A DNA stretch of 64,000 bases, taken from positions 4,024,001-4,088,000 of the forward strand of contig NZ_CP042466.1 in NCBI RefSeq assembly GCF_008330225.1, in the 5' to 3' direction. The notes below the pieces were generated by a model. It was not told where the DNA came from and searched no databases. It saw only the letters and a program-made list of their open reading frames with translations. Below, piece after piece: positions 28,362 to 40,941 of this stretch (position 1 is the stretch's first letter; every line of letters starts with the position of its first letter). Origin of the DNA: Geobacter sp. FeAm09. Its GTDB lineage: Bacteria > Desulfobacterota > Desulfuromonadia > Geobacterales > Pseudopelobacteraceae. The position numbers and the translations under genes were made by a program.

Positions 28362-28568
28362 ATAAAACACTTTTTTGTCGTTATGCCTGTGGGGCGCCTC
28401 CTTTCGCAGGAGCGTGAAAAGGGGGGGCGCCTGATGGCCCATTTTCATGTGCCGATGGGCACATAATTCGAGCAGGCTTCTTGCCTTCCTCCGCACGAAG
28501 CGCGGCAAGGTGCGCCTGCGGCCGGGCGGGATCGGCGGCCGGGAAGCATCATCGCAGAGGTCATGGCC
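28362..28568 (+). other. Structured untranslated leader, unassigned
   Basis: The roughly 200-nt leader between the promoter and the binding-protein start contains GGCGCC repeats flanking TCCTTTCGCAGGA (28393-28430) and a 7-bp hairpin ATGTGCC/GGCACAT (28447-28464). It does not match a riboswitch class that I know. The 28196-28333 stretch before the promoter shows no gene or other feature. Confidence 0.3.
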
Positions 28569-29564
28569 ATGAAAAACATGATTGGGCTGCTGCTGGCATG
28601 CCTGTGTGCTGGCATGCCCCCTTCCTGCGCGCTGGCTGCCGGGGGCTGCCGGGTGCTTGTGGTGATGAGTTATGAAGAGGATTATCCCTGGGTTAAACAG
28701 CAGAAGGAGGGGATTGATTCCCAATTGGGTGGCGTCTGTGAGGTTAAGTATTTTTACCTGAACACCAAGCGGAATTTTGCCGGCGGAGGGGAGCGGAGCA
28801 AGGAAGCCTATGCCCTCTACCGTTCTTTTCGCCCCGACGGCGTTATCGCTGCCGATGACGACGCCCAGGCCATGTTCGTGGTCCCCTATCTCAGGGACAA
28901 GGTGAAGACGCCGGTCATGTTCTGCGGCGTGAATGCGGAGCCGGAACAATACGGCTATCCGGCCAGCAACGTGTCCGGCGTTCTCGAACGCCACCATATC
29001 GCCGAATCCATCGTGCTGGCACGGCAACTCATCCCCTCCGTCAAGACCATCGGCTTCATAATGAAGGAGAGCCCGGTAGCCGGGTTAGTCAGGAACCAGG
29101 TAAACCAGGAGTACGCATCGTATCCCATCAGGGTCGTGGGTTTCAAAATGCCAAAGACCCTGATGGAGGCTGTTGCCATGGCCAGGGAGTTCAGAAAGAG
29201 CGCCGATGTGCTGTACGTGGAGACCCTCGAGGGGATCGTCGACGCGGCCGGCAGCCCGATCAAGGACCGTGAGGCCATGTCGACCGTGGCCAGGGCCTTC
29301 GGCAAGGCGACCCTGACGGGGAACTCCTACTACATCGAATATGGTCTCCTGGCGGCCGTTGTCCTGTCGGGCCAGGAACAGGGTGCAACCGTCGCTCGCA
29401 TGCTTCAGCAGGCCATGGGGGGCACCCCTGTTGCCAGGATTCCTGTCGTCAAAAATCACAGCGGCAAACGGATGATCAACGTGACGGTTATGAAGAAGCT
29501 GGGTATAACCCCCAAACCGCTCGTTCTGCGGGGGGTCGAACTGGTTCGGACGAAGGAGCCGTGA
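28569..29564 (+). CDS. Periplasmic ABC-type substrate-binding protein (PF04392-like)
   Basis: A 331-aa exported protein: signal peptide up to about residue 22 (ALAAGG), then two Rossmann-like lobes (RVLVVMSYEEDYPWVKQQKE, FRPDGVIAADDDAQAMFVVP, SVKTIGFIMKESPVAG). This matches the ABC substrate-binding family that occurs without transporter genes beside sensor kinases. Here a hybrid kinase follows 127 bp downstream and no permease or ATPase is near, so it may present a ligand to that kinase (inference). The ATG at 28569 has AGAGG 8 bp upstream; the ATG at 28563 is too close to it. Confidence 0.78.
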   Translation: MKNMIGLLLACLCAGMPPSCALAAGGCRVLVVMSYEEDYPWVKQQKEGIDSQLGGVCEVKYFYLNTKRNFAGGGERSKEAYALYRSFRPDGVIAADDDAQAMFVVPYLRDKVKTPVMFCGVNAEPEQYGYPASNVSGVLERHHIAESIVLARQLIPSVKTIGFIMKESPVAGLVRNQVNQEYASYPIRVVGFKMPKTLMEAVAMAREFRKSADVLYVETLEGIVDAAGSPIKDREAMSTVARAFGKATLTGNSYYIEYGLLAAVVLSGQEQGATVARMLQQAMGGTPVARIPVVKNHSGKRMINVTVMKKLGITPKPLVLRGVELVRTKEP

Positions 29565-29691
29565 CATGCGTGACAATCATCGCAATCGTGCCGTCTCTCG
29601 TGCCGTGACGTCGAAGGCCTTGGTGGAGGTACCGGGCTCACCGCCAGACCCGCGCTGTTGCGGAACAACACGCTCGTGACCACCGACTGAT

Positions 29692-32409
29692 ATGGGCAGT
29701 AATCTAACCAAAGGTATGGGGATCGCCACCCGGCTGATCCTCATGAATCTGTTGCTTGTGACGCTGTTTGCCGTCATGAGCGTATTGGCCCATTACACGT
29801 TTGCCAAGGTGGAACGGTTGGTGGGCACGAGCGTCGGCTCCGATGTCAAGCAGAACATGGCTAACGCCCGCATGCTGCGGGAACTGGCGGCAATATTTTC
29901 TCAAACCGACCAACTGTTGGGGAATTTTCTCAAGAACGAGAAGGTTCTTGAAAAACAGAGCAGGCAGGTGGTGGCCGCCGTGGAGCGCCTGGGCGCCGAG
30001 AGCAGCGACCGCCGTCTGACCTTGCCGCTTCAGGCGTATGCCCGCAGGTTGGATACGCTTTTCGAGGTCTGCACCGGAGTCAATACGGCTCTCCGGCAGG
30101 TTGAGCAGTTGGAACAGCGTCTGCACGGGGAGCTCGACGCCCTCGAGCAGACCATCAGCGACGCCAAGATCGCACTGGTTCTCAAGGGGCTCGATCCGGT
30201 CATCATGGACCAGTTGACGGTTCTTACCGCCGGCTTCCAGGATTCTCTCCAGAGCATCAACCTGCTGTTTTTCCGGTCCATCAGCGACAAATCTACGGTT
30301 GTTGCCGCCGCGCGGCACAAGCAACTGCTTACCATGATCGACGATTTCACCCTGCAACTCCAGGCCTTGACGGCATCGGAGCCGCAAATCGCCGCGTACG
30401 CCCCCCGGGTGGTCGCCTCCATGCGGACCTATCGCGCCATGGTTGACCGCTATTACCTGTCCATGGAGGAGTTGCAGCGCCAGAGCCGTCAATTGGAAGA
30501 GGCAAAGGCGATGGTGAACGGCATCATGCAGCGCATGGACGAAGAGCTTGCCGTCTCTTCCAGTGGCATCAGCCGCCATGTGCACGATATCATGGTCACC
30601 TCCCGCCGCGGCACCCAGGTGATTGCGGTGGTATCGGTCCTGGCCTCCGGTATTGCGGCCATATTCTTCATCCTCTCCGTTATCCGCCGGCCGATGGCCC
30701 AGATCATAAAGGGGATCGAAGGTATTGCGGCCGGCAATCTCGATACCAGGATCAACCTCAACAGAAACGATGAGTGGAGCCATATAGAAACCGCCCTGAA
30801 CCGTATGGCCGGGGAGCTTAAGCAGTCCTACCTGGAGCTGGAGCGGTCCAACCACGAATTGCAGGCCGAGATCCTCGAACACCGGCAAACGGAAGAAAAC
30901 CTGCGGCGGGCCAAGGAGTACACGGAGAACCTCATTCAGGGGGCCAGCGTGATTGTCGTTGGCCTTGACGTCGACGGCTGCGTGAACCTGTTCAACCAGA
31001 CGGCCGAGATGATCACCGGCTACTCTCCCGGAGACTTGGTGGGGAAGGAGTGGTGTGAAGCCATCTGCCCCCGGGAGCGTTTTCCCGAGGTCCATGCCGA
31101 ATTCGAACGGCTCAGAGAGAGCGCAATCGTTGGCACGTTCGAAAATCAGTTTTTGACCAAGCATGGCAAAACGAGGACCATTTCCTGGAGAAACAACCCG
31201 ATCATAGAAGACGGGGTAGTTGTCGGGACGCTTTTGTTCGGTATGGACCTGACCGAACACCGCACGACGGAGGAGCAACTCCAGCAGTCCCAGAAGATGG
31301 AGGCTATCGGCCGCCTGGCCGGTGGTGTCGCCCACGACTTCAACAACATGCTCGGCGTCATCCTCGGCTATGCGGAACTGTCCATGCTCACCGTTGCCGA
31401 AGGGAGCAAGCTCCGGCGCAACCTCGTTGAGATCTCCAAGGCGGCGCAACGCTCCCGCGACATCACCCGCCAACTCCTGGCTTTTTCCCGCAAGGAGGTT
31501 ATCGCCCCCCAACCGACCAACCTCAATACCCTGATCGTGGAGACGGAGAAGACCCTGGGGCGGCTCATCGGCGAGGATATCGACCTGGCTTTCCGACCGG
31601 CCCAAGACCTCTGGACGGTCAAGGTCGACCCGTCCCAGATAGACCAAATCCTGATGAACCTGGCGGTGAATGCCCGCGACGCCATGCCGGATGGCGGCCG
31701 TCTGAGCATAGAAACATCAAATATCCGCATCGATGAATCCTACTGCCAGTACCAACTGGATGCGCAGCCCGGTGATTTTGTCAGGATAGCGGTCAGCGAC
31801 ACCGGCATCGGCATGGACGACGAAACCCAAAGGCACATCTTCGAACCGTTCTTTACCACCAAAGAGGTCGGCAAGGGAACAGGGCTCGGCTTGGCCACAA
31901 CCTTTGGCATCGTCAAGCAGAACAACGGCTTCATCCAGGTTTACAGCGAGCCGGGGCACGGCTCCACCTTCAACATATATCTGCCCAGTACCGCTGAATC
32001 CGCCGTGGCCCCGCCGTCCCACGGGGAAAAACCGCCTGCGGGGGCCGGCGCCGTCCTTGTGGTGGAAGACGACAAGACCGTGCTCACGATGTCAACGATG
32101 ATGCTGGAGGAGATCGGCTACACCGTCCACGCGACCGGCGACCCCCAGGAGGCGATCGCGTTGTGCCGTGATCCGGGAACGGTTCTCGACATGATCCTTA
32201 GCGATGTCATCATGCCCGCCATGAGCGGCAAGGAGATGGTCGAGCAGATTTTGCAGGTACGGCCGGCAATCAAGGTCCTGTACATGTCCGGCTATACCTC
32301 CGACATCATTGCCCAGAAGGGGGTACTGGAGGAGGGAATGCACTTCATTCACAAGCCGTTCGATATGCATACCCTGCATGAAAAGATCAAGGAAACATTG
32401 AACGGGTAA
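29692..32409 (+). CDS. Membrane hybrid histidine kinase (HAMP-PAS-HisKA-HATPase-REC)
   Basis: A 905-aa sensor. One membrane segment (about residues 12-34) and a second (about 308-332) enclose a roughly 270-residue helical periplasmic sensor; HAMP follows (about 330-385, GIAAGNLDTRINLNRNDEW), then a coiled coil, PAS (about 420-530, VVGLDVDGCVNLFNQTAEMI), HisKA with His548 (GGVAHDFNNMLG), HATPase (NLAVNARDAMPDGG, DTGIGMD, GTGLGLAT) and a receiver with Asp838 (ILSDVIMPAMSG). It is preceded by a periplasmic binding protein that may deliver the signal. The output partner is unknown; no phosphotransfer or DNA-binding protein is adjacent except the next two-component pair. Confidence 0.9.
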   Translation: MGSNLTKGMGIATRLILMNLLLVTLFAVMSVLAHYTFAKVERLVGTSVGSDVKQNMANARMLRELAAIFSQTDQLLGNFLKNEKVLEKQSRQVVAAVERLGAESSDRRLTLPLQAYARRLDTLFEVCTGVNTALRQVEQLEQRLHGELDALEQTISDAKIALVLKGLDPVIMDQLTVLTAGFQDSLQSINLLFFRSISDKSTVVAAARHKQLLTMIDDFTLQLQALTASEPQIAAYAPRVVASMRTYRAMVDRYYLSMEELQRQSRQLEEAKAMVNGIMQRMDEELAVSSSGISRHVHDIMVTSRRGTQVIAVVSVLASGIAAIFFILSVIRRPMAQIIKGIEGIAAGNLDTRINLNRNDEWSHIETALNRMAGELKQSYLELERSNHELQAEILEHRQTEENLRRAKEYTENLIQGASVIVVGLDVDGCVNLFNQTAEMITGYSPGDLVGKEWCEAICPRERFPEVHAEFERLRESAIVGTFENQFLTKHGKTRTISWRNNPIIEDGVVVGTLLFGMDLTEHRTTEEQLQQSQKMEAIGRLAGGVAHDFNNMLGVILGYAELSMLTVAEGSKLRRNLVEISKAAQRSRDITRQLLAFSRKEVIAPQPTNLNTLIVETEKTLGRLIGEDIDLAFRPAQDLWTVKVDPSQIDQILMNLAVNARDAMPDGGRLSIETSNIRIDESYCQYQLDAQPGDFVRIAVSDTGIGMDDETQRHIFEPFFTTKEVGKGTGLGLATTFGIVKQNNGFIQVYSEPGHGSTFNIYLPSTAESAVAPPSHGEKPPAGAGAVLVVEDDKTVLTMSTMMLEEIGYTVHATGDPQEAIALCRDPGTVLDMILSDVIMPAMSGKEMVEQILQVRPAIKVLYMSGYTSDIIAQKGVLEEGMHFIHKPFDMHTLHEKIKETLNG

Positions 32410-32551: not shown

Positions 32552-34357
32552 ATGGGCCGCTGGCCGGGCCCGTTGAGAAAGCCCTCTATGATGCGACATT
32601 CCAGGGGACATGAACGCCGTAATCGCCCCGTACCGGTCCTGCTCCGGTTGTGGGTGTTCTGTGCCGTTGCGGGCCTGATCCTTGCCATCTGCTTCCCTTG
32701 TGCCGCCGGTGCCGATGCCGGCAAACGGAAAAGCTCCGTTATTATCGTCGGCGGCGGGTGGGACCTGCCCCCGTACGAATTCATCGACCGGGACGGCAAG
32801 CCGGCCGGCTATAACGTGGAACTCACGAAGGCGGTGGCCGAGGTCATGGGACTCAAGGTCGAGTTCCGCCTGGGCAATTGGCCGGAGATGCGGGACAAGC
32901 TGCAAACCGGGGAGATCGACCTGCTCCAGGGGATGTTCTATACCGATGAACGGGCCCGGATTTTCGATTTTTCCAATCCGCACAACAACGTCAACCACGC
33001 CATCTTCGCCCGGCGCGGGATGCCGACCCTGCAATCGCTCGAAGGGTTGCGCGGCAAGGAGGTCATCGTCGCCCGCGGCAGCCTGATGCACGACTTCCTG
33101 GCCCGTCAGGGGATTGCCGGGAAGCTCATCCTGACCGATACCCCGGCCGACGCATTGCGGCTTTTGGCTTCCGGAAAACATGACTACGCGGGGGTTGGGC
33201 TTTTGGGGGGGATCTACCTGGCCCGGGAACTGAAGCTCACGAATATTGTCCCCGTGGTACGCAGCGTTGTCTCGTACCGCTATTGTTTTGCGGTGAAAAA
33301 AGGCAACTCGGAACTGCTGGCCGATTTCAATGAAGGCCTGGCCATCCTCAAACAGACGGGCCAGTACCAGAAGATCTACGAAAAGTGGCTCGGTGTCCAG
33401 GAATCTCCGCGCATCACGTGGAAGGAGATTGCCAAATACGTGGTGATCGCCGTCATTCCCCTGCATCTCATCCTGCTCGGCACCATATTCTGGTCACGCT
33501 CCTTGAGGAAGCAGGTTGCCCAAAGGACCGAATCGCTCACGAAAGCGCTGCACGAGCTGCAGATAAACCAAAAACAACTCGTCCAGGCCGACAAGCTGGC
33601 CGCCCTCGGCACCCTGGTCTCCGGCGTCGCCCATGAAATCAACAACCCCAACGGCCTGATCCTGCTCAGCATCCCGACCCTGATGAAAGCCCACAGGGAC
33701 ACGGCGCATATCCTCGAGGAATATTACCGCGACCACGGAGACTTTACCGTGGCAGGCCTGCCCTACATCCGCATGAAGGCGGAGATTCCCCGCATACTCG
33801 AAGAAATGCAGGATAGCGGCCAACGCATCAAACGAATCGTCTCCGACCTGAAGGATTTTGCGCGGCGCGATGACAGTGCCGGTCAGGAGTTGCTTGATTT
33901 CAATACGGCGGTGCAGACGGCAGTGCGCCTTGCCGAGCCGACATTCCGCAAGGCAACGGATTCCTTCACGGTCGATTACGGAGCGGGGCTCCCGCGGGTG
34001 CGGGGCAATGCCCAACGGATCGAGCAGGTCATCATCAATTTGATTCTCAACGCCTGTCAGGCCCTGCCGGATGCCAGCCGGAGCATCCAGCTCTCGACCT
34101 CGTACCACCAACCGTCCGGTGCCGTGATCCTCAGGCTGCGGGACGAGGGGGTCGGGATCAGCCCCGAGCATATGTCCCAGTTGACGGACCCCTTTTTCAC
34201 CACCAAGCGGGAGAGTGGGGGGACCGGCCTCGGATTGTCGGTATCCGCCAAGATCGTCAGGGACCATGACGGCACCCTGGCGTTCGACTCGGAGCCCGGC
34301 GAGGGCACCACCGTGACCCTCTCCTTTCCCATTGCCAAAGAGGAGCAGACCGCATGA
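32552..34357 (+). CDS. Sensor histidine kinase with periplasmic SBP_bac_3 solute-binding domain
   Basis: About 601 aa. A signal/anchor segment is followed by a periplasmic family-3 solute-binding domain (WDLPPYEFIDRDGKPAGYNV, then DLLQGMFYTDERARIFDFS), a membrane segment (YVVIAVIPLHLILLGTIFWS), a HisKA domain with His361 (SGVAHEINNPNG) and HATPase (NLILNACQALPDAS, DEGVGISPEH, GGTGLGLSV). Such domains bind amino acids or small organic acids, so this kinase probably senses a periplasmic solute. Its stop overlaps the start of an NtrC-type regulator (ATGA), making a cognate pair. GAGG is 9 bp before the ATG at 32552; the ATG at 32588 is an alternative. Confidence 0.88.
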   Translation: MGRWPGPLRKPSMMRHSRGHERRNRPVPVLLRLWVFCAVAGLILAICFPCAAGADAGKRKSSVIIVGGGWDLPPYEFIDRDGKPAGYNVELTKAVAEVMGLKVEFRLGNWPEMRDKLQTGEIDLLQGMFYTDERARIFDFSNPHNNVNHAIFARRGMPTLQSLEGLRGKEVIVARGSLMHDFLARQGIAGKLILTDTPADALRLLASGKHDYAGVGLLGGIYLARELKLTNIVPVVRSVVSYRYCFAVKKGNSELLADFNEGLAILKQTGQYQKIYEKWLGVQESPRITWKEIAKYVVIAVIPLHLILLGTIFWSRSLRKQVAQRTESLTKALHELQINQKQLVQADKLAALGTLVSGVAHEINNPNGLILLSIPTLMKAHRDTAHILEEYYRDHGDFTVAGLPYIRMKAEIPRILEEMQDSGQRIKRIVSDLKDFARRDDSAGQELLDFNTAVQTAVRLAEPTFRKATDSFTVDYGAGLPRVRGNAQRIEQVIINLILNACQALPDASRSIQLSTSYHQPSGAVILRLRDEGVGISPEHMSQLTDPFFTTKRESGGTGLGLSVSAKIVRDHDGTLAFDSEPGEGTTVTLSFPIAKEEQTA

Positions 34358-35769
34358 CCCAAAATCCGTACCCCAGCTTCGGTATCCTGCTGGTTGACGA
34401 CGAACCGGCCTGGCTCAACATGCTTGCCATTACCCTGGAGGGAAGCGCCGGCATCACCAACATCGTCACCTGTTCCGACAGCCGGGAAGTCCTGCCGCTC
34501 CTGGACAAGGGGGGAATCGGCCTGGTGCTCCTCGACCTGACCATGCCCCACCTGACCGGCGAAGAACTCCTCAGGAAGATCGGCGAGAGCCATCCGGAGA
34601 TCACCACCATCATCGTCAGCGGCATGAACCAGATTGCGACCGCGGTGCGCTGCATAAAACAGGGGGCCTTCGATTACTTCATCAAGACCGATGAGGAGGA
34701 CCGGATTGTGGGCGGGGTGCTCCGGGCGGTCCGCATGCTGGAGATGCAGCGGGAGTACGATGAGATGTCGAGCCGGGTCGTGTCCGGGGAGTTGCGTCAT
34801 CCCGAGGCGTTCACCGCCATCGTGACCGGCGACCGCTCCATGCTGGCGCTGTTCACCTATGTGGAAGCGGTGGCCAAGAGTCCCCAGCCGTTGCTCATCA
34901 CCGGGGAGAGCGGCACCGGCAAGGAGTTGCTCGCCCAGGCCGCCCACAACCTCAGCGGTTGCCGCGGCAGGCTGGTAACGGTCAATGTGGCGGGGCTCGA
35001 TGACGCCGTCTTTTCCGATACGCTCTTCGGCCATGTGCGCGGCGCATTTACCGGTGCCGATTCCGTGCGGCGTGGCATGATCGAGGAAGCCGAAAACGGG
35101 ACCCTTTTCCTCGACGAGATCGGCGACCTCGGCATCGCCTCCCAGGTGAAGCTGCTGCGCCTTCTCCAGGAGGGGGAGTACTTCCCCCTCGGCAGCGACC
35201 GGCCCAAACGCCTCAAGGCGCGCATCGTCGTGGCCACCCACCAGAACCTGCCGGCAAAGGAGGCGGATGGCTCATTCCGTCGGGACCTGTACTACCGCCT
35301 CCGCACCCATCAGGTCCGCATCCCGCCGCTTCGGGAACGCAAGGGGGACATCCCCCTGCTGCTCAACCATTTTCTGGCCGAAGCGGCGAGCGCCCTGGGC
35401 AAGAAAAGGCCGACCCCGACCCAGGGGCTGGCCCAGTACCTCACCACCTACGGGTTCCCCGGGAATATCCGCGAACTCAAGGCCATGGTCTACGACGCCG
35501 TCAGCGTGCACAACGACCGGATGCTGACCTTGGAGCCGTTCGTCGATGCCATTGAGCGCGCCCGGCACGACACCGGCCCGGCCGGCGCCGCGGCTGCCAG
35601 AGAGAACCCCTTTGCCGGGTTCGAAGAACTTCCCACCTTCGGTGATGCCGCCGGATTTCTCGTGATGGAGGCCATGAACCGCGCCGGCGGCAACCAGACC
35701 CTGGCGGCGCGCCTCCTCGGCATCTCCCAGCCGGCCCTCAACAAGCGCCTCAAGCTGCTGCGCGGCTGA
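34354..35769 (+). CDS. NtrC-type sigma-54-dependent response regulator
   Basis: A 471-aa transcription activator. Receiver domain with phospho-acceptor Asp61 (VLLDLTMPHLTG), AAA+ domain with Walker A at residues 184-191 (GESGTGKE), the sigma-54-contacting GAFTGA loop at 230-235, Walker B (GTLFLDEIGDL) and the arginine finger region (RRDLYYRLRTHQVRIPPLRE). A Fis-type helix-turn-helix closes the C-terminus (GGNQTLAARLLGISQPALNK). It is coupled to the upstream solute-sensing kinase. A 9-bp palindrome at 35900-35920 and a -24/-12 promoter at 35994-36008 lie between it and the flavoprotein operon, which is therefore its likely target. Confidence 0.93.
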   Translation: MTQNPYPSFGILLVDDEPAWLNMLAITLEGSAGITNIVTCSDSREVLPLLDKGGIGLVLLDLTMPHLTGEELLRKIGESHPEITTIIVSGMNQIATAVRCIKQGAFDYFIKTDEEDRIVGGVLRAVRMLEMQREYDEMSSRVVSGELRHPEAFTAIVTGDRSMLALFTYVEAVAKSPQPLLITGESGTGKELLAQAAHNLSGCRGRLVTVNVAGLDDAVFSDTLFGHVRGAFTGADSVRRGMIEEAENGTLFLDEIGDLGIASQVKLLRLLQEGEYFPLGSDRPKRLKARIVVATHQNLPAKEADGSFRRDLYYRLRTHQVRIPPLRERKGDIPLLLNHFLAEAASALGKKRPTPTQGLAQYLTTYGFPGNIRELKAMVYDAVSVHNDRMLTLEPFVDAIERARHDTGPAGAAAARENPFAGFEELPTFGDAAGFLVMEAMNRAGGNQTLAARLLGISQPALNKRLKLLRG

Positions 35770-35811
35770 AGGGGCTATAACCCCAGGTTATTTTTATAAC
35801 CATTGCTCATA

Positions 35812-35841
35812 CCCATGCCCGGGGGTTATGGGCGTCTTTTT
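35812..35841 (+). terminator. Probable terminator of the kinase-regulator operon
   Basis: CCCATgCCC ... GGGttATGGG hairpin with an internal mismatch, followed by CGTCTTTTT. Confidence 0.5.
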
Positions 35842-35899
35842 AGCTTGTATTGACTAATATCTTGAAATTAAAGCAGTTAATAGTGAAATCCCGCCACCC

Positions 35900-35920
35900 G
35901 GCATAACCTCCGGTTATGCC
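35900..35920. promoter_or_regulatory. Palindromic enhancer site (likely UAS of the NtrC-type regulator)
   Basis: GGCATAACC, 3-nt spacer TCC, GGTTATGCC: a perfect 9-bp inverted repeat about 110 bp upstream of the predicted sigma-54 start point. Looser copies of the half-site (TATAACC, GGTTAT) occur at 35776-35802 and 35824-35830. Binding by the adjacent regulator is inferred from position. Confidence 0.6.
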
Positions 35921-35961
35921 TCTGAATCGCGCTTTCGCCGTGCCATCCCTAAAAAATAATG

Positions 35962-35983
35962 TAATTACAGGTTGTTGTAATTA
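35962..35983. promoter_or_regulatory. Second inverted repeat between UAS and promoter
   Basis: TAATTACA, 6-nt spacer, TGTAATTA. The AT-rich location between enhancer and promoter would suit a bending protein or a second regulator; unassigned. Confidence 0.4.
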
Positions 35984-35993
35984 TTCCGCCAAC

Positions 35994-36009
35994 TGGCATC
36001 CTCCGTGCT
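35994..36009 (+). promoter_or_regulatory. Sigma-54 (-24/-12) promoter of the flavoprotein-cytochrome-porin operon
   Basis: TGGCAT, 6 nt, TGCT: the invariant GG (35995-35996) and GC (36007-36008) have the required 10-nt separation. It lies about 65 bp upstream of the flavoprotein start. One position of the TTGC box is changed. Confidence 0.6.
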
Positions 36010-36072
36010 CTTACTCGTGCAGATCGATATCGGCATACCCGGTACCACACAACACGAGACAGGAGGAAGCAA

Positions 36073-37497
36073 ATGAAGCTCAACAGCATGTGGAGGATTG
36101 TAGTCGCGGCCGCCGTGATCTGCGTCAGCGGCACAACGGCATTCGCCGCAGGGCGGGTGTTCACGAACGACGTGGTCATCATCGGCGCCGGCGGGGCCGG
36201 CCTGGCGGCGGCGGTGAGCGCGGCACAGTCCGGAGCGAAGGTCACGGTGCTGGAGAAATTGCCGGTCATCGGCGGCCACACCATCATCTCCGGCGGTTCC
36301 GTCAACGCCCCTGACCCGGAACGCCAGGCCAAGGCCGGCATCAAGGATTCCCCCGACCTTTTCTACGAGCAGACCCTGAAAGCCGGCGATTACCGCAACG
36401 ACCCCGCCGTGGTCAGGGTGCTGGCCGATAACGCCACCGACATGCTCACGTGGTTCGAATCCCTCGGGCTCAAATGGGACGACCGGGTGTTCGAGGCGTG
36501 GGGCGGCCTCTATCCCCGCAGCCACAACTCCGGCGCAGCCGCAGCCGGCAAGGACTACATCAGGGTGCTCAACGACAGCGCCAAGAAACTGGGCGTCACC
36601 GTCAAGACCAACACCAAGGTCATGGACCTGCTCAGGGACGGCAGTGAAGGGCGCGTGTACGGCGTCAAGGCACTGAACAAATCCGGCGACACCGACACCT
36701 ACCTGGCAAAGGCCGTCATCATCGCCAGCGGCGGGTTTACGGCTAACATCCCCATGCGCATGAAATACAACCCCCGCCTCAACGAGAAATTCCGCACTAC
36801 CGCCAACCCCCAGGGCAAGGCTCTCGACGGCAGCACCGGCGACGGCATCATCATGGCCAAGAAGATCGGCGCCGACGACGTGGGGATGGATTACATCCAG
36901 TTGATCCCCTTCTCCGGCGGCCGGGTCATCGACTACGTGGGCGGCGACATCTTCGTGAACTTCGACGGCAAGCGCTTCGTCAACGAAGGTGGCCGGCGCG
37001 ACGCCATTGCCGATGCGATCCTGAGCCAGCGCGGCCAGAAGATGTGGGTCATCACCGACGACCAATCCATCAAGGGCGCCAGTCTCAAGACCAAGCTGGA
37101 AAAGGGGATCGTTTTCAAGGCGGACACGGTTGAAGAGATGGCCCGGAAGATGGAGGTGGATCCGAAGGTTCTGCAGCAGACGCTCGACCGTTACAACCAG
37201 TACGCCAAAGACAAGCAGGACCCCGACTTCGGCAAGGCCATGTTCACCCAGACCGTCGACAAGGCCCCGTACTATTTCGGCATTGAAACCGCCGACGTCC
37301 ACTTCACCTGCGGCGGCCTGCGCATCAGCCCGAAAGCGGAAGTGATCGACCTGGACGGCAAGGCGATTCCGGGCCTCTTCGCAGCCGGCGAGGTTGCCGG
37401 CGGCATCCATGGCACCAACCGGGCCGGCGGCAACTCCCTGACCGCCATCTTCGTCTTCGGCCGCATCGCAGGTACCAACGCGGCACAACTGAAGTAA
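36073..37497 (+). CDS. Exported fumarate reductase-like flavoprotein (candidate methacrylate/acrylate-type reductase)
   Basis: A 474-aa periplasmic FAD protein. Signal peptide to about residue 26 (AFA-AG), FAD fold GAGGAGLAAA at 38-47, and C-terminal FAD contact GLFAAGEVAGGIHGTNRAGG. Compared with the flavin part of Shewanella flavocytochrome c fumarate reductase, the proton-donating Arg (here Arg309), the His of the HxTxGG motif (His410) and the substrate Arg (Arg450) are kept. The His of YIQxHP is replaced by Ile278 and the Thr-Glu pair near it is absent. This suggests a substrate with one carboxylate instead of two. The heme domain is a separate gene downstream, as described for the Geobacter methacrylate redox system. 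AGGAGG precedes the ATG by 6 bp. Confidence 0.87.
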   Translation: MKLNSMWRIVVAAAVICVSGTTAFAAGRVFTNDVVIIGAGGAGLAAAVSAAQSGAKVTVLEKLPVIGGHTIISGGSVNAPDPERQAKAGIKDSPDLFYEQTLKAGDYRNDPAVVRVLADNATDMLTWFESLGLKWDDRVFEAWGGLYPRSHNSGAAAAGKDYIRVLNDSAKKLGVTVKTNTKVMDLLRDGSEGRVYGVKALNKSGDTDTYLAKAVIIASGGFTANIPMRMKYNPRLNEKFRTTANPQGKALDGSTGDGIIMAKKIGADDVGMDYIQLIPFSGGRVIDYVGGDIFVNFDGKRFVNEGGRRDAIADAILSQRGQKMWVITDDQSIKGASLKTKLEKGIVFKADTVEEMARKMEVDPKVLQQTLDRYNQYAKDKQDPDFGKAMFTQTVDKAPYYFGIETADVHFTCGGLRISPKAEVIDLDGKAIPGLFAAGEVAGGIHGTNRAGGNSLTAIFVFGRIAGTNAAQLK

Positions 37498-37632
37498 CCG
37501 GCCATCCCGCGCGAAAGTTCGTGCTGGCAACGGACCAAGGTTCCCTCGGCGCCTCTGCCGGGGGAACGGTCCTCTGATCTTACGATAGTGCGCCGGACAG
37601 CCCGTTCCGCACGAAGCAAAAGGAGAAACGAT

Positions 37633-37965
37633 ATGAAGAGCAAAACCATAATGATGCTTGCGGCGGTATGTGCGGTGTGCTGGGCGGGTGTTCCGGCATT
37701 TTCCGGAGACCAGCTTGCCGACAGGCACAAGGCGGCAGGGCTCGGCTGCAAGGATTGCCACGGCGACAAGGACAAAAAGGACGGCGTCGATATGGACAAA
37801 TGCCTGAGCTGCCATGAATCGTACGCAAAGCTCAAGCTTTCCCCCAGGACGATGAAACTGCATCCCAACCCGCATGACGGGCATTATCCGGACCTGGATT
37901 GCAACAACTGCCACCATGGCCATAAGCCCTTAGAGATTTACTGCGATCAGTGCCACAAGAAATGA
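37633..37965 (+). CDS. Periplasmic tetraheme cytochrome c, electron donor to the flavoprotein
   Basis: A 110-aa exported cytochrome (signal peptide to about residue 24) with four heme motifs: CKDCH 39-43, CLSCH 57-61, CNNCH 90-94 and CDQCH 104-108. The spacing and flanking His-rich segment (HPNPHDGHYPDLDC) resemble the N-terminal heme domain of Shewanella flavocytochrome c, here encoded separately. It lies between the flavoprotein and a porin gene, so it most likely passes quinol-derived electrons to the flavoprotein in the periplasm. AGGAGAA precedes the ATG at 37633. Confidence 0.9.
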   Translation: MKSKTIMMLAAVCAVCWAGVPAFSGDQLADRHKAAGLGCKDCHGDKDKKDGVDMDKCLSCHESYAKLKLSPRTMKLHPNPHDGHYPDLDCNNCHHGHKPLEIYCDQCHKK

Positions 37966-38028
37966 GCGCGGCACAACGTCGCGAAGTGACGATCCCATAG
38001 ATTCGGAATGTGGAAAGGAGACGGGCAG

Positions 38029-39516
38029 GTGAAACATAACATCAAGATCATGGCAGCGTTAGTGGCCTGCGCCCTGACGGCTGCGGGCACAACTCCGGCG
38101 CAGGCCCTGGAGAACGAGTTCCACGGCATGTATCGCTTGGCCGCTGTCGACAGCAACTATCTGGGGTCGCAGGCAGCCAGTTACTATACCTACAACGGCT
38201 CCAACATCTTCGCCCAGGACCCGAAGACCGCAAATATCAGGGAGCAGCACCCGGCAACGGCCAACTTCCTCGATCAGCGCCTCCGGCTCATGTACATCGC
38301 ACGGGTGGATGAAGAGCTGAAGCTGGTGACCAATTTCGAGATCAACTCCCGCTGGGGCGACAACAACTATGGCACCGGCATTTCCGGGGGCGGGGCCGTG
38401 GGTGCCGATTATGTGAACCTGCGCACCAAGTCGGCCTATCTCGATTATTCCTTCAATATCGGCATACCGGTCAACAGCAGGCTCGGTATCCAGCCGGTGG
38501 CCGACAGTTACAAAGGGATCATCCTCGACAACGACGCCGCGGCGGCAGTCCTGTCTTCGAAAATAGGCGCAACGACCCTGACCGTCGGTTTCTCCCGTTT
38601 TGCCGACAACGGCAGCCTGAACAGCTATTCCGCCACCACCGATTACACCGGCACCGGCGAGCCCACGCCCAACACCAACGGCAACCTGTTCGGCGGGGGG
38701 CTGGCAGTGACGAATACCAATGGGGCAAACGGCGCCGCCTACGGCGACGTGTCAGCCGACTTCTGGATCCTGGACGCCAAATACGACGTCAACAACAACC
38801 TCACGGTGGGCGCCAGTTATTACCTGCTCTACAGCGACATCGCCAAAAAGCTCTCCAGCACCAACGCCACAGCCAAGTATCGTGAGAATGTGCACATGCT
38901 GGGGGTAAGCGCCAAAGGCAAGTTCGGCCCCGCCCAGATCGACGGCTTTTTCGTCTACCAGATCGGCAGGACGACCAACCGCGACATCCATGCCATGGCC
39001 GGCAACCTGGGAGCCAGGATCAAGGCAGGTCCCGGCACCGTCAAATCGGAATTCCTCTACATGAGCGGCGACAGCGGCACCTCGACGGGACGGACCTCTT
39101 CCTTCCAGGTCATCGGCGGCGAGGCCGGCTACACCTGTAGCGGCTTGCAGATCCTGAGTCGCGATTCCCTGGTCATGAGCAGGAACAATGCCCTCTTCTA
39201 TGACAACAATGCGGGCATGGGGGTCGTTTTGGGAGCCATCGGCTATGACCTGCCCTTGACCGGCCGCCTGTCGGCCAATGTCAATGCCGGCTTCGGCGCC
39301 GTCGAAAGCGTCAATTCGAATATTGTCGCCGCATCGGGCGAATATCTGGGCACGGAAGCCAATGTGTCCCTGCCGTTCAAGGCAAAGGAAAACCTGACGA
39401 TCACACCACGCTTCGCCTACGTGTTTCTCGGGGACTTCTACAAAAACCTGGCCGCAAATGGCAAAACGCCGGACAACCCGTACCTGGCAAGCCTGCTGGT
39501 GAACTTCAAGTTCTAG
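38029..39516 (+). CDS. Outer-membrane beta-barrel porin of the flavoprotein operon
   Basis: A 495-aa exported protein with a signal peptide (KIMAALVACALTAAGTTPAQA) and alternating amphipathic strands, ending in aromatic-terminated strand LLVNFKF, the typical outer-membrane barrel signal. No heme motif. The GTG at 38029 is chosen because AAGGAG is 8 bp upstream. It ends the operon after the flavoprotein and tetraheme cytochrome, followed by a strong terminator (39638-39678), so it probably admits the electron acceptor to the periplasm (inference). The porin family is not recognised beyond general Geobacter porins. Confidence 0.78.
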   Translation: MKHNIKIMAALVACALTAAGTTPAQALENEFHGMYRLAAVDSNYLGSQAASYYTYNGSNIFAQDPKTANIREQHPATANFLDQRLRLMYIARVDEELKLVTNFEINSRWGDNNYGTGISGGGAVGADYVNLRTKSAYLDYSFNIGIPVNSRLGIQPVADSYKGIILDNDAAAAVLSSKIGATTLTVGFSRFADNGSLNSYSATTDYTGTGEPTPNTNGNLFGGGLAVTNTNGANGAAYGDVSADFWILDAKYDVNNNLTVGASYYLLYSDIAKKLSSTNATAKYRENVHMLGVSAKGKFGPAQIDGFFVYQIGRTTNRDIHAMAGNLGARIKAGPGTVKSEFLYMSGDSGTSTGRTSSFQVIGGEAGYTCSGLQILSRDSLVMSRNNALFYDNNAGMGVVLGAIGYDLPLTGRLSANVNAGFGAVESVNSNIVAASGEYLGTEANVSLPFKAKENLTITPRFAYVFLGDFYKNLAANGKTPDNPYLASLLVNFKF

Positions 39517-39637
39517 TGATTTTTCACTATGGGACGGTGCGGCGCTCCCATGCACTACGGAAACCGTGAAAACCTTTGAGAGCGCATGGCGTGTTTCAAG
39601 CCCGGGCCAACGCCGCCGAACCTTGGCCCGGATGACG

Positions 39638-39678
39638 GGCCCGTGGGGTTCTCCCTCCTTCCTCCACGGGCCTTTTTT
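39638..39678 (+). terminator. Rho-independent terminator after the porin gene
   Basis: GGCCCGTGG (39638-39646) pairs with CCACGGGCC (39664-39672), followed by TTTTTT. Confidence 0.85.
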
Positions 39679-39726
39679 CCGCGGCTTACCGGCATAGGGC
39701 ATCTTCGGCACGCCAAGGGAGAAACC

Positions 39727-40941
39727 ATGGAAACCCGCACCCTGTTCCGGGGGTTGTTCCTGATCAACTTCGCCATCACCCTGGGCTTCGGCATCGCCGA
39801 CGCCTTCTTCTCCCTCTACGTCTTCAGCCTGGGCGCACGGGGAGCACTCCTGGGACTGCCGCTGGTCCTCTACTCCCTCTCCAAGATCGTCCTCAGCCCC
39901 TTCATGGGCGCCTGGGCCGACCGCATCGGCCGCAAGAAGGTCGCCGCCGCCAGCCTCGGCCTCTACCTCTTCGTCTCCCTCTCCTACCTCTTCACCGCCA
40001 GTCTCCCCCTCATCACCCTTCTGCGCCTGCTCCAGGGCATCGGCTGCGCCATGTTCCGCCCCGTGGTGCTCTCCCTGGTGGGCGAAGCCTCCCCGGACCA
40101 CAAGCGGGCCACGGTCATGGGCACCTTCGACATCTCCTTCTACGGCGCCCTGAGCCTGGGGCCGGTGATGGGGGGGATGCTCAAGGACCTGTGGGGCTTC
40201 CAGGGGATCTTCGCCACCCTGGCCCTCCTGTGCGTCGTCGCCCTGGCCGTGGCCCTCATCTGCATCCCCGGCCACACCCCCCCGCCACGGCAGGCCAGCC
40301 ACAGCGAACGCCTCGGTGACCTCCTGGGCGCCACCCGCCACAGCTCCTTGCGGGGCCTTCTGGCCTTCGTCTTCGGCCGGGCCTGCGGCATCTCGCTGTT
40401 GGGGGCCTTTCTCCCCATCATGCTCACGGCCCGGCTGGGGCTGAGCGGCACCCGGGCCGGGCTGGTCATGGCCTCCTCCACCCTGGTGATGACCCTCTTG
40501 CTCCGTCCCATGGGCATGCTCTCGGACCGGGCGCCGCGCAAGTCCCTGGTGGTTGCCGGGGGCACCGTGGTCTCGCTGCTCTACTTCCTGATCCCGGTGG
40601 CGGTAGGTTTTGGTCAGATCCTGGCGCTGGGGGTGGGTATCGGCCTGTTCAGCGTGTTGTCCCAGCCTGCGAGCACGGCGCTGCTGGTGGAGGAGGGGAG
40701 CCGCCACGGCATGGGTGCGACGGTTGGCACCTGCAACGCGGTGCTGAACCTTGGGTTCGTTTCCGGCCCGCTGTTGGGTGCGGGACTGCAGAGCGCCCTG
40801 GGGCTGACGGCGGTGTTCTACGCCGCTGGGGTTCTGGGGCTCGGGGCCGTGGCGCTGTTCATGGCCAACGTCGGAACGGTGGTGGCGGGCAGCGCCGCCG
40901 GATACCGACACCCCTGTCCACAGCAGCACTCGGTTCGCTGA
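39727..40941 (+). CDS. Major facilitator superfamily transporter
   Basis: A 404-aa inner-membrane protein with about 12 membrane segments. The MFS loop 2-3 motif appears as GAWADRIGRKKVAAA, and a second copy after the central loop as GMLSDRAPRKSLVVAGG. The substrate is not identifiable; the fold resembles drug/metabolite efflux carriers. It starts at the ATG at 39727 with AGGGAGA upstream; the frame is open further upstream but that part overlaps a terminator. It is transcribed separately from the porin operon. Confidence 0.85.
   Translation: METRTLFRGLFLINFAITLGFGIADAFFSLYVFSLGARGALLGLPLVLYSLSKIVLSPFMGAWADRIGRKKVAAASLGLYLFVSLSYLFTASLPLITLLRLLQGIGCAMFRPVVLSLVGEASPDHKRATVMGTFDISFYGALSLGPVMGGMLKDLWGFQGIFATLALLCVVALAVALICIPGHTPPPRQASHSERLGDLLGATRHSSLRGLLAFVFGRACGISLLGAFLPIMLTARLGLSGTRAGLVMASSTLVMTLLLRPMGMLSDRAPRKSLVVAGGTVVSLLYFLIPVAVGFGQILALGVGIGLFSVLSQPASTALLVEEGSRHGMGATVGTCNAVLNLGFVSGPLLGAGLQSALGLTAVFYAAGVLGLGAVALFMANVGTVVAGSAAGYRHPCPQQHSVR

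Follow-up and report, generated by a model that had tools for sequence, protein, structure and literature searches.

A candidate self-regulated periplasmic module for reduction of an unsaturated organic acid in Geobacter sp. FeAm09

Introduction

Flavoprotein reductases related to fumarate reductase share carboxylate-binding residues. His364/365 touches one carboxylate of fumarate, and the other substrate carboxylate is held in UrdA by Arg411, Arg560 and His520, which are conserved in the family (PMC7921117). The same work tested a Y373H variant of UrdA for a gain of activity with fumarate. In a methacrylate reductase, the fumarate His and Ser/Thr positions are occupied by Trp and Val (PMC4427408). 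Split flavoprotein/cytochrome pairs are known as well and have been counted as 147 gene clusters in 108 genomes (PMC8238504). On the regulatory side, kinase/regulator pairs adjoin dcuB, dctA and a porin gene in Geobacter bemidjiensis, and these pairs have been proposed to be possibly linked to dicarboxylate transport (PMC2996986). Many periplasmic flavin reductases have no known substrate, and a periplasmic receptor encoded beside the enzyme gives a direct route to the ligand. Here we analyze a locus of Geobacter sp. FeAm09 that encodes both. It lies in a stretch of 64,000 nucleotides (the window), taken from a 4.10-Mb genome that forms one contig (positions 4024001-4088000).

The module spans window positions 32552-40941, slightly beyond the 32552-39516 first described. 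We consider it probable that it is a substrate-inducible periplasmic respiratory module for an unsaturated organic acid, with a less polar monocarboxylate favored over fumarate. This reading draws on what the sequence itself shows: which genes are present, the operators and the promoter, catalytic residues that are conserved, and altered pockets in both sensor and enzyme. Our main new argument is that the sensor and the enzyme pocket changed in the same direction, a parallel that we infer from one module.

Results

Organization of the locus

The features are as follows, in window coordinates.
32552..34357, plus strand: P0004, a histidine kinase whose periplasmic sensor domain (residues ~60-285) is of solute-binding family 3 (Pfam SBP_bac_3, HisKA, HATPase_c)
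34354..35769, plus strand: P0005, an NtrC-type sigma-54 response regulator whose gene overlaps that of the kinase by ATGA (Pfam Response_reg, Sigma54_activat, HTH_8)
35777..35791, unstranded: operator 1, ATAACCCCAGGTTAT (motif ATAACC-N3-GGTTAT)
35903..35917, unstranded: operator 2, ATAACCTCCGGTTAT, core of a perfect palindrome at 35900-35920 (same motif)
35994..36009, plus strand: -24/-12 (sigma-54) promoter TGGCATCCTCCGTGCT, 76 bases past operator 2 (motif scan)
36073..37497, plus strand: P0001, a flavin adenine dinucleotide (FAD) flavoprotein whose leader is, by eye, of Sec type; a flavocytochrome-c-type reductase that lacks a heme or flavin mononucleotide (FMN) domain (Pfam, NCBIfam, AlphaFold, Foldseek)
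37633..37965, plus strand: P0002, a tetraheme cytochrome and likely electron donor, its export leader and four CXXCH motifs judged by eye (Cytochrom_c3_2)
38029..39516, plus strand: outer-membrane porin-like protein P0003 (weak Alginate_exp and DESULF_POR1 matches)
39637..39679, plus strand: terminator hairpin and T tract (folding calculation)
39727..40941, plus strand: transporter of the major facilitator superfamily (MFS), past the terminator (Pfam MFS_1)

The gene-level picture of the preliminary description stands. A solute-binding kinase translationally coupled to an NtrC-type regulator is borne out by the Pfam domains and by the ATGA that the two reading frames share. The perfect palindrome (GGCATAACC-TCC-GGTTATGCC) and the -24/-12 promoter are present, and operator 1 was found in addition; both operator copies and the promoter sit between the stop codon of the regulator gene and the flavoprotein gene. 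The exported fumarate-reductase-like flavoprotein, the separate tetraheme cytochrome and, through weak matches, the porin were likewise recovered. The closing terminator is a 12-pair hairpin followed by a T tract; the 66 nt that enclose it fold at -37 kcal/mol (z -4.6). A simple terminator scan did not report the hairpin at 39637-39679, because its 13-nt loop exceeds the limits of the scan.

Active site and relatives of the flavoprotein

P0001 matched FAD_binding_2 (Pfam, E 7.3e-76) and the flavocytochrome c model TIGR01813 (404.7 bits, above the curated cut-off of 285.45), and its leader appears Sec-like, with no twin arginine, by eye. The closest PDB structure is that of UrdA, 6t85 (E 4.2e-87). 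An AlphaFold model was confident (predicted local distance difference test, pLDDT, 89.4; predicted template modeling score, pTM, 0.88), and UrdA and Fcc3 came out closest in a Foldseek search with it. Fcc3 residues R402, H504 and R544 (545 in chain 1d4c) are kept as R309, H410 and R450, so that P0001 combines the TIGR01813 match with the arginine proton donor and the Arg/His carboxylate anchors. Because these equivalents are kept, its assignment as an organic-acid reductase is supported at the level of sequence. The rest of the pocket differs from that of Fcc3: His365 is replaced by Ile278, His505 by Phe and Met507 by Cys, and the loop of the Thr377 region is shorter by six (15 versus 21 residues), leaving the Thr unalignable. 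P0001 lacks the His365 and Thr/Ser377 set of FccA and also its fused heme domain, the heme protein being encoded by the separate gene at 37633-37965. It lacks the hinge residue Tyr373 of UrdA too.

Few close relatives were found. A first scan of genome contigs for close P0001 orthologs gave no match. In 57 genomes of the genus, family and order, searched at E <= 1e-60, matches besides P0001 itself were at most 42% identical. At E <= 1e-87, its own genome alone matched among 277 of the class, and its own and four others matched among 395 genomes drawn from the phylum. A wide search with E-value thresholds gave 524 confirmed stretches, of which the best 80 were used; the best relatives among the matches listed are 46-48% identical and come from Clostridia, Mesosutterella and two genomes of another class. 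We built a FastTree tree of 60 rows (16 paralogs from the same genome, 11 relatives, 4 from the phylum, 25 chosen from those 80 loci, 3 PDB stretches and P0001). In it, P0001 pairs with two Sutterella proteins (L147 and L183) with support of 1.0. All three share a TCGG motif and an IPF-x-GGR loop, the latter being present nowhere else among all fetched loci. The reductase half of the module thus looks foreign in origin. The preliminary description had tied the activity of the flavoprotein to its place among characterized reductases, and in this tree, with its three PDB stretches, P0001 lies apart from both the fumarate and the UrdA group. Fumarate reductase was rejected as its leading identity on pocket residues and tree. 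Urocanate, another candidate acceptor of that description, is not favored, given the Ile at the Tyr373 position and the place of P0001 outside the UrdA group.

In Sutterella wadsworthensis DSM 14016 (L183:5066-9287), a kinase with a phosphonate-binding domain and a LuxR-type regulator are encoded directly before the flavoprotein with the P0001 loop signature. This locus is an independent pairing of a receptor kinase with a reductase.

Sensor pocket of the kinase

P0004 matched SBP_bac_3 with E 1.3e-36 (Pfam). The PDB structure closest to its sensor domain is 3h7m (E 1.4e-83), presumably the G. sulfurreducens member of this solute-binding protein kinase family, which provides a template for the P0004 sensor. 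Kinase matches at E <= 1e-100 occurred in 40 of 55 genomes searched, its own included. We compared the pocket, at positions taken from LAO/HisJ, with that of a reference set from the dcuB group, 17 kinases in all (L099 and L103-L118), 14 of which have dcuB in the fetched stretch. L119 was left out of this reference; it falls among the dcuB-group kinases in the tree, yet serves a flavocytochrome, and is itself changed at 1/10 positions.

Seven of ten reference-conserved pocket positions are altered in P0004 (D11G, Y14L, S72F, H117A, G120S, I121L and A161G), and W52, G70 and R77 (R134 in protein numbering) are kept. Outside the pocket, 30/140 conserved positions are altered (Fisher p 0.0023, columns being treated as independent); restricted to fully invariant columns, the counts are 7/10 and 13/98 (p 0.00023). 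In a leave-one-out comparison, every one of the 17 reference kinases scored 0/10. Two kinases equally diverged overall, L123 and L125 (33/140 and 31/140), yet have 0/10 pocket changes, and 3h7m has 0/10 with 25/140 elsewhere. Pocket enrichment is absent in other paralogs, such as L102 (5/10 with 59/140), and in the kinases of L120, L121, L122 and L128 (3/10, with 41-44/140 elsewhere). The retained R77 argues that the sensor still binds a carboxylate, and the loss of charged and polar pocket groups points to a ligand of low polarity. The earlier proposal that the ligand of the kinase is the acceptor itself, or an analogue of it, is thereby supported only indirectly, through the altered pocket.

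In a tree of full-length kinases, P0004 falls with reductase-linked kinases (Shimodaira-Hasegawa-like approximate likelihood ratio test, SH-aLRT, 93), and a tree of the kinase part only agrees (support 80; approximately unbiased test p 0.105 for the dcuB grouping). The sensor-only tree places P0004 with the dcuB group (support 52). We dropped the idea of a clean clade of reductase-linked kinases, since the sensor-only and kinase-only trees conflict.

Operators, regulator and the dcuB connection

The exact sequence ATAACC-N3-GGTTAT occurs four times in the genome, twice here and twice ahead of the dcuB gene at 782 kb. Allowing one mismatch raises the count to nine sites, versus four for a reversed control pattern, more than expected by chance. 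We examined 17 dcuB genes, including that of the same genome, in neighborhoods of kinase relatives that were selected (20 + 12) and form a non-random sample; in this sample, an operator with up to one mismatch lies within 500 bases upstream at 15, the two genes with none in that interval being those of L124 and L126. At 11 of the 17, the distance from operator 2 to the -24 element is 76-80 bases, and it is 76 in the window. In the scan, the four operator-bearing dcuB loci without that spacing have a single operator (L112), no -24/-12 element (L106 and L114) or one located elsewhere (L117). The same operators also precede three fused flavocytochrome genes (L129-L131).

The helix-turn-helix of P0005 is NQTLAARLLGISQPALNKRLK, and dcuB-type regulators are alike save for small variation, mainly L/M and N/S. 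At the same place, the regulators of L120, L121, L122, L128 and L032 have SLWKR. In a regulator tree, P0005 joins the dcuB-linked regulators in an 18-row group with moderate support (SH-aLRT 84). By operator, promoter 76-80 bases further on and regulator type, the regulatory half is assigned to the two-component family found beside dcuB, the gene of a fumarate carrier; the pocket of P0004 departs from the 17 kinases of that family. That the module is self-regulated, as first described, is supported by helix-turn-helix, operator and 76-base operator-promoter spacing, which match the conserved two-component system of the relatives.

A dcuB-type regulator encoded at ~756 kb (L099:7031-8454) is 74% identical to P0005 over 403 residues, and the two should read the same operator. 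In the present sequence, the 756-kb gene is frameshifted at a G run, ahead of the DNA-binding domain; the frameshift may be real or a sequencing error. Because of it, P0005 may be the sole intact reader of this operator in the genome. The shared operator clearly predicts cross-regulation with fumarate respiration, and with the 756-kb regulator frameshifted, such cross-talk between dcuB and the module is to be expected. A literature search for GSU2755 found nothing.

Cytochrome, porin and transporter

P0002 matched Cytochrom_c3_2 with E 1.9e-18 (Pfam), and its best PDB matches are the heme domains of Ifc3/Fcc3. P0003 was recognized weakly, by Alginate_exp (30.6 bits, cut-off 25.2) and by DESULF_POR1 (53.4 bits, below the cut-off of 250); its GTG start at 38029 is better positioned behind a ribosome-binding site, and ATG 38008 is possible. 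A protein with 30% identity to P0003 is encoded at 3.34 Mb, next to a further kinase/regulator pair. The MFS gene recurs at five other places in the genome together with some of the sequence ahead of it (window 39602-40871), four times at 96-97% DNA identity and once at 86%. The four close copies lie at most 4 kb from a flavoprotein module and the 86% copy ~9 kb from one.

Just upstream of the module, at window positions 28563-32409, a separate sensory pair named by eye consists of a periplasmic ABC-type substrate-binding-like protein and then a 905-residue hybrid kinase.

Other reductase modules in the genome

The genome holds 14 split flavoprotein/Cytochrom_c3_2 pairs, one of them 1.7 kb apart, and one fused pair. 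They lie at L021-L026, L028, L029 and L031-L036, together with two further flavoproteins that have a hexaheme open reading frame two genes on. The heme partners have four to seven CXXCH motifs. At E <= 1e-9 we counted 15 Cytochrom_c3_2 domains, versus at most six in 75 other genomes of the family; 63 of the 76 family genomes (this one counted) have none. With these 15 domains the genome is an outlier, which points to a single lineage that respires many organic acceptors. At 786 kb, ~2 kb past dcuB, lies the gene of a fused flavocytochrome that has the fumarate residue set.

For 7 of 10 paralogs examined, the best NCBIfam match was vinyl phenol reductase (292-391 bits, cut-off 600); the seven are VprA-like split flavoproteins at L025, L026, L028, L029 and L031. 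Three of six examined regulators or kinases beside such paralogs (L026, L031 and L034) have the aromatic-sensing domain XylR_N, which suggests aromatic acceptors.

The flavoprotein/tetraheme modules at L021:8661-11040 (414 kb) and L022:7748-10022 (772 kb) have identical profile scores and face opposite ways; they probably stem from a recent duplication. Near an intact module, one flavoprotein gene (G000:C1:1012229-1013541; L024:12230-13542) is split into two pieces in different frames and is probably a decayed copy. The label 'Mrd-like' was dropped for paralogs L024 and L032, which have Tyr where Mrd has Trp according to PMC4427408.

Discussion

The module would work as follows. An organic acid would enter through the porin and bind the periplasmic domain of the kinase. 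Phosphorylated P0005 would then bind both operators, and sigma-54 RNA polymerase would turn on the flavoprotein, cytochrome, porin and possibly MFS genes. The menaquinol pool would supply electrons, which would reach the tetraheme cytochrome through the periplasm and then go on to FAD, and the C=C bond next to the carboxylate would be reduced by a hydride from FAD N5 and a proton from Arg309. Kinase and enzyme may bind the same compound, an acrylate-, crotonate- or cinnamate-like monocarboxylate instead of fumarate. In favor of this reading, the published methacrylate reductase likewise replaces the His and Ser/Thr (PMC4427408). In evolutionary terms, a dcuB-type kinase/regulator/promoter cassette may have been recruited to a horizontally acquired reductase. 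A further, tentative step from there is that the acceptor is an undescribed one with a co-diverged receptor: both pockets would have lost the groups for a second carboxylate, the reductase would be newly acquired, and the dcuB-shared operator may cross-prime fumarate respiration in the manner of an OR-gate.

Several observations weigh against reduction of a less polar monocarboxylate by an acquired enzyme. No P0001 relative above 48% identity is among the matches listed. Composition gives no sign of recent transfer, the G+C content of the flavoprotein gene (0.632) being close to that of the window (0.628). The Sutterella proteins L147 and L183 carry Trp at the catalytic Arg that P0001 keeps, and the chemistry of the clade may therefore vary. 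On the sensor side, the pocket positions are taken over from LAO/HisJ, and a first run with position 14 misplaced gave 6/10 (p 0.015). The Fisher test assumes independent columns, the paralog kinase L032 (5/10, 44/140) shows no pocket enrichment, and the tree position of P0004 varies with the segment used. An operator shared with dcuB would also be expected for a module that serves fumarate.

The locus could be a second fumarate-respiration module. Its kinase would then sense fumarate or succinate, the presumed ligands of the dcuB-linked relatives, and P0001 would reduce fumarate with a pocket that is unusual for such an enzyme. The dcuB-type operator, helix-turn-helix and promoter fit this idea, as do L129-L131, where the same operators stand before fused flavocytochromes with the full fumarate-type residue set. 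We regard it as quite unlikely, however, given the change of His365 to Ile and the shortened Thr377 loop in P0001, the kinase pocket altered at 7/10 positions and the fused flavocytochrome with a fumarate set already present at 786 kb. Fumarate, one of the acceptors first suggested, is made unlikely by both pockets. It is unlikely, too, that the acceptor is something other than a simple enoate, such as an aromatic or another oxidized compound with one carboxylate. This idea would suit the Trp in the Sutterella proteins that are the closest signature relatives, the vinyl phenol reductase matches (below cut-off) of 7/10 paralogs and the XylR_N domains beside them, but P0001 retains the proton-donating arginine as well as the two carboxylate anchors, and no XylR_N domain was found in P0005 (Pfam). 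The MFS gene past the terminator, recurring near other flavoprotein modules, could be an exporter in a system that removes a toxic unsaturated acid or sheds electrons without energy gain; the dedicated porin and the exported partner cytochrome are more in keeping with an acceptor taken from outside, and we think such a role very unlikely. Substrate-induced respiration on an unsaturated, less polar organic acid hence remains our preferred reading. Of the interpretation first offered, the self-regulated module and the organic-acid reductase are supported, while fumarate is unlikely and urocanate is not favored.

We compared the module with similar loci and described systems. In six loci of relatives, picked for having both kinase and flavocytochrome matches nearby, kinases of the same family stand beside a fused flavocytochrome, and kinase/regulator pairs of this kind are on record (PMC2996986), so that the combination is less unusual than first thought. 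Four of the six (L120, L121, L122 and L128) encode kinase, regulator, fused flavocytochrome, porin and MFS transporter; L119 has the same set without MFS, and L107 has kinase, regulator, dcuB and flavocytochrome. In the window, by contrast, reductase and cytochrome are two genes. The four complete loci resemble it in composition, but have a fumarate/Ifc3-type active site and a different kinase pocket, and no ATAACC-N3-GGTTAT-type operator lies within 500 bases of their flavocytochrome genes. Our literature searches found no account of a kinase/flavocytochrome module of this kind, nothing on reductase sets in Geobacter and general papers only on gut reductase sets. Little et al. are said to have described, in 2024, large periplasmic reductase sets in gut bacteria such as Sutterella wadsworthensis; like those bacteria, the present genome has many flavoprotein reductases. 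The S. wadsworthensis relative differs in a kinase sensor type unrelated to P0004 and in the Trp that replaces the catalytic Arg.

Among characterized enzymes, Fcc3/FccA of Shewanella shares with P0001 the fold and the catalytic R402, H504 and R544, and its heme domain is related to P0002; it differs in that the heme domain is fused, His365 and Thr377 are present and it belongs to another tree group. UrdA (6t85) has the same carboxylate anchors, but a Tyr at the I278 position, an FMN domain (PMC7921117) and, again, a different place in the tree. By the tests made, P0001 is classed as neither FccA nor UrdA, and the module would work like a self-regulated respiratory system of the methacrylate/fumarate type. 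The Mrd/Mcc system of Geobacter sulfurreducens AM-1, likened to the module by its published description, also comprises a separate exported flavoprotein and a c-type cytochrome in one operon, has the fumarate-binding His and Ser/Thr replaced and is described as horizontally acquired (PMC4427408). Mrd has a twin-arginine (Tat) signal, unlike the Sec-like leader seen by eye in P0001, and Mcc, with 231 residues and 4-7 hemes, differs from P0002; the passages of PMC4427408 on Mrd/Mcc mention no kinase, sigma-54 promoter or porin. The dcuB/dctA/porin kinase pairs of Geobacter bemidjiensis (PMC2996986) correspond in kinase and regulator family, helix-turn-helix, operator and promoter spacing; the present module differs from them in that it controls a split reductase and has 7/10 pocket positions altered. 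The parts of the module are thus ordinary and their arrangement is unusual, with relatives that already pair the same kinase family with fused flavocytochromes.

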